Origin: a virus
DNA: 39,052 bases
Direction: 5' to 3' (one strand)
Virus record (IMG/VR): IMGVR_UViG_3300013101_000030
Span: 1-39,052 of that record
Shown: positions 1 to 39,052 of the stretch, one piece after another
Position numbering within the stretch: the stretch's first letter is position 1
Layout of the letters: every line of letters begins with the position of its first letter
Notes under the pieces: model-generated
What the model was told of the DNA's origin: nothing
Seen by the model: only the letters and a program-made list of their open reading frames with translations
Database searches by the model: none
Position numbers and translations under genes: made by a program

Positions 1-433
1 TATCTCAAACCGAATGGCAGGGGCTTGACTTCTCCTCGATACCGATCAAGGAGTGCTTCTTCGAAATCGACCATCGCGGCCGTGTCAAATACTTCTACCG
101 TAAGCTTGAGTGGACTGCCGTACAGATAAAGGACAAATTCGATGACATCCCCGACCGTGTCGCCGCAAAGCTCGGACATCCTGATGATCGCATGGGGGTC
201 TTGTTTGTCATCTACCCGCGTGACGGAGTTGAAGAAGGAGATGGTGTCAAAGCCCCGAACCTTCGACCCTGGGGTTTCAGGTACATACTCACTGATGATG
301 CCGTACTTCTCGGAGAAGAAGGGGGTTACTATGAGATGCCCGCGTTTATTCCACGTTGGCTCAAAACCTCAGGCAGCATCTGGGGTCATTCGCCTTCAAC
401 CGTTGCATTGGCAGACATCAAGACTCTCAACAA
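1..433. repeat. Contig-end overlap, left copy
   Basis: These 433 bases recur at 38620-39052 with 13 mismatches (left-copy positions 92, 119, 137, 146, 152, 158, 159, 239, 242, 299, 305, 323, 329). Twelve fall in third codon positions of the portal frame. Ten of the differences are silent and three give D/E, V/I and D/E exchanges. The outer 91 and 104 bases are identical. The overlap shows the molecule closes on itself in the portal gene. Confidence 0.95.
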
Positions 434-1205
434 GCAAGTCGAGCTTATCCTGCGCGCAAACGAGAAAATTATCGACCCAACTACACTCACTACGCAGCGT
501 GGCTTGTTTGGAGACCTTGACCTATCACCCGGAGCCGTCAATGTTGTACGAGATATCGAGGCAGTTAAAGCCTACGAGTCAGGTGCTCGGTTCGACGTAT
601 CCGAACTCCAACGATCCCACCTAGTCGAGTCGATACGCCGCATATACCATGTGGATCAGCTCGAACTGAAGGAGTCTCCGGCAATGACCGCTACGGAGGT
701 CACAGTACGCTACGAGCTTATGCAAAGGTTACTCGGGCCTGTGCTTGGTCGTTTGCAGCATGACCTCTTAGACCCCCTAGTAGAGCGCACATTCCGCATA
801 CTGGCGCGGGCAGGTCAATTGCCGGAGACACCTGAGGTAGTCAAGAACGCCGGTGAACTAGATATCAGGTATAGCGGGCCGCTTGCGAGAGCACAGCGTA
901 GTGACTTGATCGCTAGTACAGAACGCTGGGTCGGTGGCTTAGCTCAAGTTGCGCAGGTAGTTCCGTCAGTGCTTGATAACTTCGACGGTGACGCGTATGC
1001 TCGAGAAACCTCTGAGATGATGGATGTACCTAAGTCCATGCTCAAGAGTGAAGAAGAAGTAACGGCTGAGCGCCAGGCACGCCAGAAAAAAGCCGCCGAA
1101 CAAGAACAATTAGATAAGGTCAATCAAGCCGGACAAGCCATTGAGTCCATAGGAAAGGGAGCGCAATCAATTGTCGGACAACCCCAACCCGCAGCAGCAG
1201 CTTGA
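1..1205 (+). CDS. Portal (head-tail connector) protein, 3' part
   Basis: This is the C-terminal 400 or so residues of the portal protein whose start lies at 38190. Joined across the contig ends (38190-38619 plus 1-1205) the protein is 544 residues, close to the 536 of T7 gp8. The family is the podovirus head-tail connector, a dodecameric ring at the packaging vertex through which DNA enters and leaves. The frame is open from base 3. An in-frame ATG at 192 is an internal methionine, not the start. The C-terminus is an Ala/Gln-rich charged helix (around residues 490-544 of the joined protein), as is usual for the barrel/crown end. It sits between large terminase and a set of small genes, and its last 35 bases overlap the next gene. 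Identification rests on family recognition and on its place after terL. Confidence 0.9.
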   Translation, partial: SQTEWQGLDFSSIPIKECFFEIDHRGRVKYFYRKLEWTAVQIKDKFDDIPDRVAAKLGHPDDRMGVLFVIYPRDGVEEGDGVKAPNLRPWGFRYILTDDAVLLGEEGGYYEMPAFIPRWLKTSGSIWGHSPSTVALADIKTLNKQVELILRANEKIIDPTTLTTQRGLFGDLDLSPGAVNVVRDIEAVKAYESGARFDVSELQRSHLVESIRRIYHVDQLELKESPAMTATEVTVRYELMQRLLGPVLGRLQHDLLDPLVERTFRILARAGQLPETPEVVKNAGELDIRYSGPLARAQRSDLIASTERWVGGLAQVAQVVPSVLDNFDGDAYARETSEMMDVPKSMLKSEEEVTAERQARQKKAAEQEQLDKVNQAGQAIESIGKGAQSIVGQPQPAAAA

Positions 1206-1392
1206 AGAACTTAGAGAGCGACGTGCGATGATCAAGCGTATGCTCCTGTCCCCGATTGGGGCAGATCTTATAGCTTTACTCGAAGAAGAATATGGGCAGC
1301 AAACCTCGTTCAGTGCTGACCCCTATCTGACCGCCTTCAAGGAAGGACAACGGTCTGTATTACTTTTGCTGAACGAATTTTTAAAGGACTAG
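1171..1392 (+). CDS. Small hypothetical protein, TTG start
   Basis: 73 residues beginning at TTG, preceded by AGGAAAGGGA at 1151-1160 (about 10 bases upstream), which favours this start. It overlaps the end of the portal gene by 35 bases in another frame. The N-terminal third is Gln/Glu/Arg-rich and probably helical (LEELRERRAMIKRML), followed by a compact helical segment ending in LLLLNEFLKD. Small helical proteins directly after portal are common in podoviruses and some may be head-completion or accessory factors, but I do not recognise this family. Function unknown. Confidence 0.7.
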   Translation: MSDNPNPQQQLEELRERRAMIKRMLLSPIGADLIALLEEEYGQQTSFSADPYLTAFKEGQRSVLLLLNEFLKD

Positions 1393-1397
1393 CAGCT

Positions 1398-1694
1398 ATG
1401 GGCGATAACAATATTACTGACGGGCCTCTTGATAGTGATATCAGGACGGAAGAACGAGACAACTGGACGCCGACATTCGAGAAAGGTAATGACTTACCGG
1501 AAGGGAGTAAGTTCTACATCAAGACCACAACTGTGGAAATGGTGAAGATGGATAAGCTCTTCCGAGCAGTAAGTCGTGAGGGTGTCCTGTTTGGTGAAGC
1601 CGGTGACTTCCTCGTTGAAGACGGCTATGGCGGCTTCTACTCGGTCGGCGCTGACTTCCACGAGGCCAATTATGTGGAAGTGGTCGATGACTAA
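1398..1694 (+). CDS. Hypothetical acidic protein
   Basis: 98 residues, starting five bases after the previous stop. The N-terminus is polar and acidic, and the second half is rich in Gly, Phe and Tyr (FLVEDGYGGFYSVGADF), suggesting a small beta-rich fold. There is no signal peptide or membrane segment. It overlaps the next gene by eight bases (ATGACTAA). I recognise no family. It belongs to the accessory group inserted between portal and scaffold. Confidence 0.65.
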   Translation: MGDNNITDGPLDSDIRTEERDNWTPTFEKGNDLPEGSKFYIKTTTVEMVKMDKLFRAVSREGVLFGEAGDFLVEDGYGGFYSVGADFHEANYVEVVDD

Positions 1695-2445
1695 AACAGT
1701 TATAGCATTCGTTCACTCCATCGCTGAGGACGGTCTGCCTACTGGCGATATGTCAGACGTAGCCTTTCTCTTCGATGGCAACATCGTATCTGGCTGGCCT
1801 CTTGAGCGTGACAGCGGAGATTGGGAGGCCGATAGCGACGTAGGCCGTGTCGGGAAATTTCGTGGCGTCACACATTGGGTTGACTTCGGTACACCGCTGC
1901 TGAATATGACTGACGCTGACCTTATCTCGGAACAGAAATTAACAGAACAAGAACGGTATAAGCTTGCGCTTGATGGCAAAGACCCCATGCCTGAAGCTAA
2001 GGGCGCAAAGCGCATGGTGCCACGCAGCAACCCTAGCCGGCAACCGAATGAAGGTGTGGATACTATGCCTGATCCTAATTACCAGGAAAGCGAAGACGGT
2101 ATCCCACTCAGGCATGACGAAAAGGTCGCCGGCCCCTCTCAGAAGTCGGGTCAAGGTAAATCATTTCATAACTCGGATGTGAATACGACTACGAGCAATG
2201 TTCCCGATGTCCAGTTCTTCGGCGATGGCGACACCTTCAAACTGTTATGTAAGGCATCGTCTGAGTCGGAGGGGTGGATGAAATCAACCAAGGCGATGGA
2301 GATAGTTGGCGTTGGTTGTGTCGTCCAAGTTACCACTCAGCAGCATGGTAATGTCGCAGAAGCTGTGGTATTCATACCGGATGTGGAGATTAGGACGACG
2401 TTCGAAGGCGGCGAAGTGACTGGCCGTCAACTAAGGCGGGTATAG
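1687..2445 (+). CDS. Hypothetical protein with disordered middle
   Basis: 252 residues from the ATG at 1687, which overlaps the preceding stop codon as ATGACTAA; the frame is open further upstream but this coupled start is the natural one. The first 85 residues look folded (MTKTVIAFVHSIAEDG). Residues from about 100 to 175 are Pro/Ser/Asn/Asp-rich and probably disordered. The last 70 form a possible beta domain with many Val (VVQVTTQQHGNVAEAVVFIP). The product is not recognised. Its stop overlaps the GTG of the next gene by one base. An accessory virion or host-takeover protein is possible but unproven. Confidence 0.65.
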   Translation: MTKTVIAFVHSIAEDGLPTGDMSDVAFLFDGNIVSGWPLERDSGDWEADSDVGRVGKFRGVTHWVDFGTPLLNMTDADLISEQKLTEQERYKLALDGKDPMPEAKGAKRMVPRSNPSRQPNEGVDTMPDPNYQESEDGIPLRHDEKVAGPSQKSGQGKSFHNSDVNTTTSNVPDVQFFGDGDTFKLLCKASSESEGWMKSTKAMEIVGVGCVVQVTTQQHGNVAEAVVFIPDVEIRTTFEGGEVTGRQLRRV

Positions 2446-2669
2446 TGGGCAAGGTCATTAACTTTACTGGCGGTACTCTTATAGATAGTGACCCAGACGA
2501 CATCCTCAGGGGAGCTATTGGCGATTACGAGAGTATCGTCATGATCGGGATAAGGAGAGACAGTGACCTCTTTGACTTCCGGTCAAGTATGAGTGACATG
2601 GCCGAAACTCTGTTACACCTTGAAATTGCCAAAAAATTTGGCGTAGATATAACAATTGGAGATGACTAA
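2445..2669 (+). CDS. Small hypothetical protein, GTG start
   Basis: 74 residues from GTG at 2445, which shares its G with the preceding TAG stop; AAGGCGGG just upstream serves as a ribosome-binding site. The pattern (a VMIGI strand, a short loop with DLFDFRSSMSD, then a helix TLLHLEIAKKFGV) resembles a widespread small phage protein of unknown function, but I cannot name a family with certainty. Its end couples to the lipoprotein gene through TAATG. Confidence 0.65.
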   Translation: MGKVINFTGGTLIDSDPDDILRGAIGDYESIVMIGIRRDSDLFDFRSSMSDMAETLLHLEIAKKFGVDITIGDD

Positions 2670-3007
2670 TGAGAATTCTATTAGCGTTGGCTTTCTTACT
2701 TACTGCTTGTGCGAGCACGTTACCGGTATCTGAAGATACGCCGTTGAAGTGTAAAGCAGAACTTGCTACGGGCATCGCTGCTGTCGAGCAGAAATATGGC
2801 ATCTACGAGCAGTTGTCCGACGGCACCCAATACGGTAAGCTTACAGGTTGGTACTTCGGCACTGGCGGCGTCAGCGGTTTCGGCCCGAGCAAGTCCGGCG
2901 TCACTGACTCCAAAGGTATCGCGTGGTCAGATGCTCGAGCTCAAGAAATCCGTACCAACAGCTTGGACGTCCGGGCTATCTGTGAAATCATAGGGGGTGT
3001 AAAATGA
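2669..3007 (+). CDS. Predicted lipoprotein
   Basis: 112 residues with a short positively charged start (MR), a hydrophobic stretch at residues 3-12 and a lipobox LLTAC, so Cys14 is the expected lipidation and cleavage site. The mature part is Gly/Ser-rich around residues 55-85 (YFGTGGVSGFG) and has two further cysteines, one near each end. Phage lipoproteins in this style include outer spanins and superinfection-exclusion proteins. The location among virion genes and the absence of a partner inner spanin make superinfection exclusion or envelope modification as likely as lysis. The start is coupled to the upstream stop (TAATG) and the stop to the next start (ATGA). Confidence 0.7.
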   Translation: MRILLALAFLLTACASTLPVSEDTPLKCKAELATGIAAVEQKYGIYEQLSDGTQYGKLTGWYFGTGGVSGFGPSKSGVTDSKGIAWSDARAQEIRTNSLDVRAICEIIGGVK

Positions 3008-3369
3008 GGCACTACATCGGAACAAAAACGGTCAAAGCGGAACCGGCCATCAATGATGACACGATGGCCGATGGCTACAGGGTCCTTTACCCGGATGGCT
3101 ATGAAAGCTGGTCGCCAAAAGACGTATTCGAAGAAGCATACATAGCTTTGCCAAGGGATCCGCAACAGCTGAAACGTCAGTACCCAGTCTTGGGCAACTA
3201 CTTCGAGTTCAGCCACTTGCCGCCATATCTGCAAGACGTCAGTAAACATTTTTGGTATCTTGCGTGGATAATGGTCAGTAATGACCCGGATAACCCAGCT
3301 GAAGTAGCTGCCGGGCTTCGTAAATTACTCGAGGCGAAAGACTGCTTCGTTCGTGCAGCTATAAAGTAA
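3004..3369 (+). CDS. Probable Tad1-like anti-defence sponge (Acb2/Tad1 hairpin)
   Basis: 121 residues in two parts. Residues 1-48 form a small beta domain with the hallmark string DGYRVLYPDGYESWSPKDVF, shared by many phage proteins related to Tad1. Residues 65-121 form a predicted helical hairpin (HLPPYLQDVS then LRKLLEAKDCFVRAAIK) resembling the Acb2/Tad1 hairpin domain. Tad1 and Acb2 are known phage proteins that bind and sequester cyclic nucleotide or cyclic ADP-ribose signals, thereby blocking Thoeris and CBASS immunity. The family assignment is by motif recognition; ligand and activity are inferred. The gene overlaps the lipoprotein by four bases (ATGA) and sits among small accessory genes between portal and scaffold. 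It could instead be an uncharacterised relative with no sponge activity. Confidence 0.62.
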   Translation: MRHYIGTKTVKAEPAINDDTMADGYRVLYPDGYESWSPKDVFEEAYIALPRDPQQLKRQYPVLGNYFEFSHLPPYLQDVSKHFWYLAWIMVSNDPDNPAEVAAGLRKLLEAKDCFVRAAIK

Positions 3370-3379
3370 GGAGGGCAAC

Positions 3380-4204
3380 ATGCCTGAAGAAGGAAGAGAA
3401 TGGGTAGAAACCTTACCGGCTGATGTTCAAGGCTGGAAGGAAGTAAAGGACTCACCAGATGCGGATGCCTTTTACCAGAACATGGGCGATATGCGGGCAC
3501 GCATGGGCAACAGTCTCACAGTTCCTGGTGAGGATGCTGGTCAAGATGCGATGTCTGAATTCTACGGTCGCCTGGTTGATAAAGTGCCTGGCGTCATCAT
3601 CCGCCCAGATGACACGAACACCGAACAGATGGCGGCTCACTATAAAAGCATCGGACGTCCCGAAGAGTTTAAGGACTACGGCTTGCCTGAGGGTGTGGAG
3701 GACTCAGGTACTATTCCTATACTACAAGAGATCTCTCACGGACTTGGACTCAGTCCGTCTCAGTATAACGGTATGGTGGTGGGTCTCGACAAAGTAATAT
3801 CCACCCAAGTTGCGAATAGCGAAAGTGCTCGCGTCGAAAGTGTTAACACTTTGAGGGAGGAGTGGGGCGCGGGCTATGACCGTAAACATCGCGAAGCCGT
3901 CCTTGTTGCTAAGCAGACTGGTGCACCACCTCAGTTGATCGAGCAACTTGAGTCAGGCAAAATGGGCGCTGATACTCTTAAGTGGGTTGCGGGTCTTGCT
4001 GGTGCCGTGAGTGGCAAACCGAATAGCATTGGTGATGACCCGGGTGGTGCAAGCGAGCTCACTAAATCGGAGGTCAAAACGAAACAAGCCGAGATCCGTG
4101 CTAACAAGGCATATTGGGAACCAGACCACCCCGATCATAAGCGCCTAGTGAAGCGGATGCAGGAATTGGCATTGATCGCAACACCCGCAGAAATTAAGGG
4201 TTGA
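3380..4204 (+). CDS. Capsid assembly scaffolding protein
   Basis: 274 residues, acidic overall, directly before the major capsid gene as in T7 (gene 9 then 10). It is predicted to be mostly helical with Pro/Gly breaks, with a disordered Gly/Asp stretch at about 220-232 and a C-terminal basic helix (PDHKRLVKRMQEL), the part that normally contacts the capsid protein in scaffolds. The segment GRPEEFKDYGLPEGVE is typical of this podovirus scaffold family. It directs procapsid assembly and then leaves. The start has a strong ribosome-binding site, TAAGGAGGG. Confidence 0.85.
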   Translation: MPEEGREWVETLPADVQGWKEVKDSPDADAFYQNMGDMRARMGNSLTVPGEDAGQDAMSEFYGRLVDKVPGVIIRPDDTNTEQMAAHYKSIGRPEEFKDYGLPEGVEDSGTIPILQEISHGLGLSPSQYNGMVVGLDKVISTQVANSESARVESVNTLREEWGAGYDRKHREAVLVAKQTGAPPQLIEQLESGKMGADTLKWVAGLAGAVSGKPNSIGDDPGGASELTKSEVKTKQAEIRANKAYWEPDHPDHKRLVKRMQELALIATPAEIKG

Positions 4205-4363: not shown

Positions 4364-5257
4364 ATGGTTGTTACAATATCTCAAGCATATATCGAGACGT
4401 TTGAAGAGAACGTCCGACACCTTGCTCAGCAATCCGACACTCGACTTCGCCGCTTCGTAACCGAAAAAGCCACCACCGGCGAGAAGCATAACTGGGATCG
4501 CTTAGCTCAATCAGCTGCAGTTCAGAAAACATCCGCACGTACCGGCACGCCTGCTGGTGGCGACGGCTCTGGTGCTGTTGGTTCCACCGACGGTTTGGAC
4601 TGGGATCGGCGCGTATCTCTTGCCGAGACCTGGCACACTGGTGAAATCTTCGAGCAAGAAGATCCTGTTCAAATGTTGATTGACCCACAATCGTCCATCG
4701 CTACCAACTTGGCGATGAACATGCGCCGGTCGGTCGATGACATTATCATCACTGCCGCCACTGCCGATGCCTTAGATGGCGATGGCGGTACCGTTGCATT
4801 CCCAGCCGGTCAAGTTGTCGGCGACGGTACCACTCCGATCACCCTTGACTTCGTTCTCCAAGTTCAGGAACTGTTCAACCAGAATGATGTTGACCCTGAC
4901 GAACCCAAGTGCGCGGTCATCGGACCTACCCAACAACGGAAGCTCATGCAGCTGATGGAAGTCACGTCTGGCGACTATCAAAATGCTAAAGCCCTCGCGA
5001 CCGGCGTCCTGCCGAATTGGATGGGCTTCACCTGGATCGTTTCCAATCGCCTGCTAATCCCGGCATTGGACGAAATCAGCACGTTGTTCTTCAGTCGCAA
5101 GGCTATCGGTATGCAGGTGAATAAGGACATCACCGCGCGTATCGCTGAACGTGTGGATATGTCGTTTGCCTGGCAAGTTTACTGCCATCTGACGATGGGC
5201 GCTGTCCGCACTGAAGACGAGCATATCGTCCATGGCCACCTGGCCGACACTATCTAA
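4364..5257 (+). CDS. Major capsid protein
   Basis: 297 residues. The sequence matches the phage capsid family often seen next to T7-like scaffold genes. Elements include an N-terminal helix (SQAYIETFEENVRHLAQQ), a Gly-rich loop at about 65-78, the segment DRRVSLAETWHTGEIFEQED, the domain with ECAVIGPTQQRKLM-like spacing (here KCAVIGPTQQRKLM), and a C-terminal region with a WQVYCHLTMGAVR motif before an acidic/His tail. Hundreds of copies form the icosahedral HK97-fold head. The length is shorter than T7 gp10A (345), consistent with other podovirus capsids. It has its own structured leader and is followed by a strong hairpin, fitting the high-expression position of T7 gene 10. Confidence 0.88.
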   Translation: MVVTISQAYIETFEENVRHLAQQSDTRLRRFVTEKATTGEKHNWDRLAQSAAVQKTSARTGTPAGGDGSGAVGSTDGLDWDRRVSLAETWHTGEIFEQEDPVQMLIDPQSSIATNLAMNMRRSVDDIIITAATADALDGDGGTVAFPAGQVVGDGTTPITLDFVLQVQELFNQNDVDPDEPKCAVIGPTQQRKLMQLMEVTSGDYQNAKALATGVLPNWMGFTWIVSNRLLIPALDEISTLFFSRKAIGMQVNKDITARIAERVDMSFAWQVYCHLTMGAVRTEDEHIVHGHLADTI

Positions 5258-38193: not shown

Positions 38194-39052
38194 ACTATAC
38201 TAACTCAGAGCTGATCAAACGGTATGAACGCGTGCAGGCCTCCCGTCGCACTGTTGAGTCTACATGGGAAGAGATTGAGAATTTCGTCGTGCCATTCCGA
38301 GGCAAGTTCTTTCGAGATGATAAGTCTGAACACCAGGTAGAATGGGAGCGTGCTTTAATCTTTGATAGTACGGCGGTTACCAGCGCTCAGACTCTCAGCG
38401 CTAGCCTCCATGGTTCACTCACATCACCTGTTACCCAATGGTTCAATCTTATTTTCCGTGACAAGGAACTTAATCTTAACAAGACTGCTAAGGAGTGGCT
38501 TGACAAATGTTCCATAACCTGTTTCCAGGCACTCCAAGATAGCGATTTTAATCTCGAAGTGAATGAGACGTATATCGATCTCGTATCATACGGCACCTCG
38601 GTCATTGTGGAAGAGGAAGTATCTCAAACCGAATGGCAGGGGCTTGACTTCTCCTCGATACCGATCAAGGAGTGCTTCTTCGAAATCGACCATCGCGGCC
38701 GTGTCAAATATTTCTACCGTAAGCTTGAGTGGACTGCTGTACAGATAAAGGACAAGTTCGATGAAATCCCAGACCGCATCGCCGCAAAGCTCGGACATCC
38801 TGATGATCGCATGGGGGTCTTGTTTGTCATCTACCCGCGTGACGGAGTTGAAGAAGGTGAAGGTGTCAAAGCCCCGAACCTTCGACCCTGGGGTTTCAGG
38901 TACATACTCACTGATGACGCCGTGCTTCTCGGAGAAGAAGGCGGTTATTATGAGATGCCCGCGTTTATTCCACGTTGGCTCAAAACCTCAGGCAGCATCT
39001 GGGGTCATTCGCCTTCAACCGTTGCATTGGCAGACATCAAGACTCTCAACAA
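38190..39052 (+). CDS. Portal (head-tail connector) protein, 5' part
   Basis: Starts at ATG 38190, overlapping the terL stop as ATGA, and runs off the end of the window in frame; it continues at base 434 of the window. The N-terminal segment (RRTVESTWEEIENFVVPFRG and DSTAVTSAQTLSASLHGSL) is typical of podovirus head-tail connector proteins. Bases from 38620 on are the right copy of the contig-end overlap. Confidence 0.92.
   Translation, partial: MNYTNSELIKRYERVQASRRTVESTWEEIENFVVPFRGKFFRDDKSEHQVEWERALIFDSTAVTSAQTLSASLHGSLTSPVTQWFNLIFRDKELNLNKTAKEWLDKCSITCFQALQDSDFNLEVNETYIDLVSYGTSVIVEEEVSQTEWQGLDFSSIPIKECFFEIDHRGRVKYFYRKLEWTAVQIKDKFDEIPDRIAAKLGHPDDRMGVLFVIYPRDGVEEGEGVKAPNLRPWGFRYILTDDAVLLGEEGGYYEMPAFIPRWLKTSGSIWGHSPSTVALADIKTLN
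38620..39052. repeat. Contig-end overlap, right copy
   Basis: Repeats bases 1-433 at about 97% identity (13 mismatches). The two copies encode the same portal segment with three conservative residue changes, so they look like allelic versions. Confidence 0.95.

Follow-up and report, generated by a model that had tools for sequence, protein, structure and literature searches.

What does the 121-amino-acid protein encoded between the portal gene and the scaffold-position gene of this phage do, and is it a Tad1-like sponge for immune signals? An earlier sequence-only reading of the locus had proposed the latter and had regarded the late operon as an unusual place for a counter-defense gene. The window (the whole stretch of DNA analyzed here) corresponds to a 39,052-base IMG/VR record. 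The ends of the record (positions 1-433 and 38620-39052) overlap by 433 bp with 97% identity, and the portal gene runs off the right end and continues at the left; the record is therefore a nearly complete genome, closed imperfectly. Its gene content, including a Head-tail_con portal, tail proteins, an internal virion protein, a DNA polymerase, a helicase, and a terminase, is of the T7-like podovirus type, and its lifestyle is presumably that of this type.

The target gene and its neighbors

The genes and signals of the region, all on the + strand, are as follows.

192..1205, + strand: portal/head-tail connector gene, C-terminal part, forming the left border of the slot (PF12236; E value, 9.8e-64)
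1171..1392, + strand: gene for a Bbp19-like protein (PF25181), normally the sole gene of this gap in relatives (Pfam and relatives)
1206..3379, + strand: expanded accessory slot of ~2.2 kb, from the portal to the scaffold-position gene (gap comparison with relatives)
2669..3007, + strand: upstream slot gene for a predicted secreted lipoprotein (MRILLALAFLLTACAS; lipobox read from the sequence), overlapping the target gene
2992..2997, + strand: Shine-Dalgarno-like AGGGGG, 6 nt 5' of the target start codon (sequence)
3004..3007, + strand: ATGA, in which the target start codon overlaps the stop codon of the gene at 2669-3007 (sequence)
3004..3369, + strand: target gene, encoding a 121-aa two-module candidate sponge-type counter-defense protein (ORF list, relatives, and profile match)
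3380..4204, + strand: scaffold-position gene, forming the right border of the slot (assigned by position)
4364..5257, + strand: major capsid protein gene (PF19821; E value, 3.4e-51)

The target ORF starts with ATG and is judged from its sequence relationships to be a real gene, since a profile of its C-terminal part recovers the window protein at an E value of 7e-28 (the protein itself being a row of that alignment) and relatives of part of the protein are encoded in 343 phage records. Scanning the 121-aa protein against Pfam, NCBIfam, and PADLOC yielded no match, and a PDB sequence search returned only an insignificant one. The ATGA overlap suggests that translation of the target is coupled to that of the upstream gene. 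None of the promoter-like and terminator-like sites near the target gene exceeded the expectation from shuffled sequences, with promoter-like sites falling below it; the gene is thus presumably expressed from the late operon transcript, as the earlier reading had supposed.

The placement of the gene given in that reading also held, with the PF12236 portal upstream and the PF19821 capsid gene downstream. The product of 3380-4204 matched only PHROG families that carry no scaffold label, so the name scaffold rests on the position of its gene between portal and capsid. Five further small ORFs separate the portal from the target gene. Three of the slot genes, at 1398-2669, have no annotated function (98 aa; a frame of up to 289 aa; and 74 aa, PHROG 11040) and account for the unusual length of the gap in the window.

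Two modules and the Tad1/Acb2 question

The first ~50 residues of the protein (YIGTK..AEP....GYRVLYPDGYESWSPKDVFEEAY) and the last ~60 (YFEFSHLPPYLQDVSKHFWYLAWIMVSNDPDNPAEVAAGLRKLLEAKDCFVRAAI) matched different sets of homologues, and separate alignments were used for comparisons of the two modules.

3004..3150, + strand: N-module, aa 1-49, an SH3/Tudor-like small beta barrel plus a short helix (alignment, AlphaFold2, and fold comparison)
3187..3366, + strand: C-module, aa 62-121, a helical hairpin family with the pattern YFxYxHLPxxLQxVS...AGLRKLLEAKDCFVRA (PHROGs 1761 and 5120)

From the N-module alignment, AlphaFold2 predicted strands at residues 2-5, 9-16, 23-28, and 34-38 and a helix at 39-45 (pLDDT, 95-98); from the C-module alignment, it predicted short helices and, after them, a hairpin whose two helices span residues 74-93 and 98-119 (pLDDT, about 92-98). 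Because barrel and hairpin were both modeled at high pLDDT, the small beta domain and helical hairpin described earlier were correct as anatomy. PDB fold searches identified no significant match for either module. Among solved structures, the N-module came nearest to the RNA polymerase (RNAP)-interaction domains of CarD and Mfd (rmsd of 1.5 A across 48 residues, with a Z of 6.4), although a Z below 8 may reflect no more than a common SH3/Tudor arrangement. These analogues would suit a protein that serves counter-defense or host takeover through protein-protein contact, for example by way of an N-module that binds host RNA polymerase as Mfd and CarD do. Given that the resemblance may stem from the general arrangement alone, and that the N-module is fused to small-molecule binders, such a mode of action is considered unlikely.

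Tad1/Acb2 proteins have two long helices, combined either with a beta part or with short helices at the N terminus (PMC12043709). Membership of the 121-aa protein in this family, which was the central claim of the sequence-only reading, is not supported at the sequence level, where no kinship could be detected. In the profile search that the reading had itself proposed, PF24729 (Acb2_Tad1_hairpin) gave no match to the protein even at an E value of 10, whereas controls in the same scan were recovered (T4 Vs.4, whose structure is solved as 7uq2, at 7e-20; the Tad1 of locus L001 at 1.6e-6). Using hhalign, the C-module hairpin reached probabilities of 0.1-0.6% against the Acb2/Tad1 hairpin families, compared with 99.6% for the positive control of Tad1 against an Acb2-type profile; a run with the full-length alignment A5 aligned just a short N-module stretch and is uninformative on the hairpin. 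The fold lists shown for the hairpin contained no Acb2, Tad1, or Tad2 chains, though the hairpin is very small for such comparison. A true Tad1/Acb2 protein whose hairpin had diverged beyond the reach of sequence comparison, still forming the same hexamer, would share the general layout described for these proteins, and the best hhalign overlap, although insignificant, pairs the second halves of both hairpins. Set against the missing PF24729 match beside positive controls and the hhalign probabilities, kinship of this kind is improbable.

The N-module was also considered as the beta core of Tad1 and rejected. In locus L001 it stands in front of a complete Tad1, which can be aligned with solved Tad1 chains starting at residue 69, and hhalign of the N-module against the Tad1 profile gave 0.1%. 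In locus L091 the N-module likewise lies ahead of the Tad1 region.

Relatives of the modules and their genomic settings

A pattern-based, similarity-ranked search collected 102 distinct N-module proteins, which are related to one another, so that the following counts are not of independent events. A Tad2 or Tad1 domain was also present in 53 of the 102. The architectures comprised N-Tad2 (n = 40), N-gp49 (n = 26), the N-module alone or with an unidentified remainder (n = 12), N-crAss001_48-Tad2 (n = 9), N-crAss001_48 (n = 7), N-C (n = 4), N-Tad1 (n = 2), and N-gp49-Tad2 (n = 2). Pfam confirmed the Tad2 and Tad1 domains in example proteins, and gp49 of phage N4 consists of the N-module plus a Tad2-like domain. 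A viral structure search flagged an RyR protein of Yersinia phage TG1, in which the N-module (i-E value, 3.4e-10) accompanies PF02026; phage proteins with RyR domains either break down cADPR signals or sequester them (PMC13232231). Through the Tad1, Tad2, and RyR fusions, three partner families of the N-module are therefore immune-signal binders in the literature (PMC12043709, PMC13232231). The other partners, gp49 and crAss001_48, are domains without known function, and the association is thus not exclusive to sponges. These two uncharacterized partners, together with a phage MazG protein among weak Foldseek matches to the N-module, would also fit another kind of accessory (moron) gene, one concerned with nucleotide or transcription regulation and unrelated to immune signals; with three partner families known to bind immune signals, such a role is unlikely.

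Several further N-module proteins were observed. Near-standalone versions of about 54-57 aa occur in L363, L372, L377, L297, and L305, several of these from Lachnospiraceae or Eubacterium contigs, and the N-module may therefore act on its own. The portal relative L506 (8258-8896) encodes an N-module fused to a C-terminal region without a Pfam match. In Escherichia phage Louie (L514:1495-1965), a protein composed of the N-module and Tad2 bears the label "anti-CRISPR protein"; as Pfam gives Tad2-like, this label is probably wrong. Three-domain proteins combining the N-module, gp49, and Tad2 in L351 and L390 suggest gp49/Sf6 gene 66 as a further candidate for a counter-defense domain.

The C-module matched PHROG 1761 (E value, 5.1e-20; aa 57-120) and PHROG 5120 (E value, 2e-18; aa 63-120). 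It represents an unnamed family with members in several hundred phage records, mostly standalone proteins of 60-90 aa, carried by phages and prophages across many bacterial groups. Apart from the window, only Vibrio phages had N- and C-modules fused among the gathered loci. In L370 the C-module is fused to crAss001_48, and in L085 crAss001_48 is fused to Tad2; hhalign found no relation between the C-module and crAss001_48. Comparisons of the C-module with known sponges by sequence, profile, and fold gave no match, and outside the slot, standalone C-module genes were not enriched beside other sponge genes, with 5 such cases among 135 loci and a handful among the controls. That LEAKDCFV looks invariant in alignments A1 and A5 is partly an artifact, because this peptide served as a search pattern; homologues recovered without it retain the second-helix residues RKL, E, KD, and VR.

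Depending on the phage, the C-module gene lies after the capsid gene or in head, tail, lysis, or early regions. Such scatter fits an accessory gene that is mobile, and the variable position argues against a fixed structural role. A head-region accessory protein, serving in the virion or in assembly, would be in keeping with the late-operon location of the target gene between the portal and the capsid, with the head or tail operons that house C-module genes in Gordonia phages, and with a weak match of the C-module profile to the P1 tail sheath Gp22 in the PDB (L511; E value, 2e-4). That match covers the first half of the module only, with unrelated sequence following and the conserved second half of the hairpin missing, and it was set aside as a chance or local resemblance. 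The gene is also absent from most relatives that share the portal, scaffold-position gene, and capsid, and in other phages it has a lysis or early location, all of which makes a virion or assembly role very unlikely. Packaging of the protein in the particle, which the sequence-only reading had also raised, gained no support.

The gap between portal and scaffold gene was surveyed in 99 distinct relatives found through capsid or portal. It measured 198 bp at the median and normally held one Bbp19-like gene, compared with ~2.2 kb in the window. Gaps of more than 330 bp occurred in 15 of the 99. Nine of these (360-447 bp) contained just small ORFs without a match to the searched families, two belonged to very distant relatives, and four (476, 538, 570, and 664 bp) contained Tad2, Tad2, Tad2, and a standalone C-module, respectively. 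These last four, the slots with a searched-for family, were the four largest of 97 compact gaps; inserted genes are expected to make the largest gaps, and the informative part is which genes they are. Tad2 lies directly ahead of the scaffold gene in L126, L131, and L133, where Pfam confirmed the Tad2 domains above cut-off, and the standalone C-module is in L476, which was reached through its portal. Elsewhere, an N-module-Tad2 gene lies between portal and capsid (L066), a standalone C-module directly follows the portal (L067 and L079), and Vibrio phage 1.205.O carries a crAss001_48-Tad2 gene and then an N+C gene between terminase/portal and MCP. The portal-scaffold gap is thus an accessory slot and a recurrent site of sponge genes, not an anomaly. 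Since relatives reuse it for Tad2 and C-module genes, the late-operon position that had been thought unusual for a counter-defense gene is not odd. A small secreted protein is also encoded in the same slot in relatives L109 and L476.

Proposed function and comparison with known systems

Because the N-module is repeatedly attached to proteins that soak up immune signals, the 121-aa protein is probably anti-defense, and we lean, with some reserve, toward an accessory counter-defense protein of the sponge type as the candidate role. The counter-defense flavor of the sequence-only reading is in this respect retained: a sponge-type role is well supported by association, through the N-module fusions and the content of the slot, and the activity would be as follows. 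Translated from the late transcript during infection, the protein would form an oligomer through the hairpin of the C-module and bind a host-made signal of the nucleotide or ADP-ribose type, as in Thoeris- or CBASS-like defense, so that the bound signal would no longer reach its effector. Ligand binding would fall to the hairpin, and the barrel of the N-module may be a shared accessory part that contributes another pocket, a contact within the oligomer, or a place for docking.

A broader proposal is offered tentatively: the C-module could be a new and very widespread sponge family unrelated to Acb2, Tad1, and Tad2, with the N-module a general accessory domain common to unrelated sponge families. 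If so, one small domain would mark sponge-type counter-defense genes across unrelated families, and sponge families as yet unknown could be found by their fusion to it. The uncharacterized hairpin family would become a concrete candidate inhibitor of signaling defenses, with gp49 and crAss001_48 as further candidates, and the gap in the late structural operon would be a repeated landing site for such genes.

Among known systems, Tad1/Acb2 (PF24729) resembles the window protein in being a phage accessory protein with a beta part plus a helical hairpin, and Tad1 is itself fused to the N-module in two loci; however, neither window module shows sequence or profile similarity to Tad1/Acb2. Tad2 (DUF2829, PF11195) is the commonest partner of the N-module and occupies the same portal-scaffold slot in relatives, but the domain is absent from the window protein, and PF11195 had no match there or across the whole window. 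The phage RyR proteins (RyDEP anti-Thoeris family, PF02026) are linked through the Yersinia phage TG1 protein, which carries the same N-module, whereas the window protein contains no RyR domain. With the RNAP-interaction domain of Mfd and CarD, the N-module shares an SH3/Tudor-like fold but no sequence similarity, and having a fold in common implies no function. The closest relatives of the hairpin are the proteins of PHROGs 1761 and 5120, both matched by the C-module; these are mostly standalone, while the window copy is fused to the N-module.
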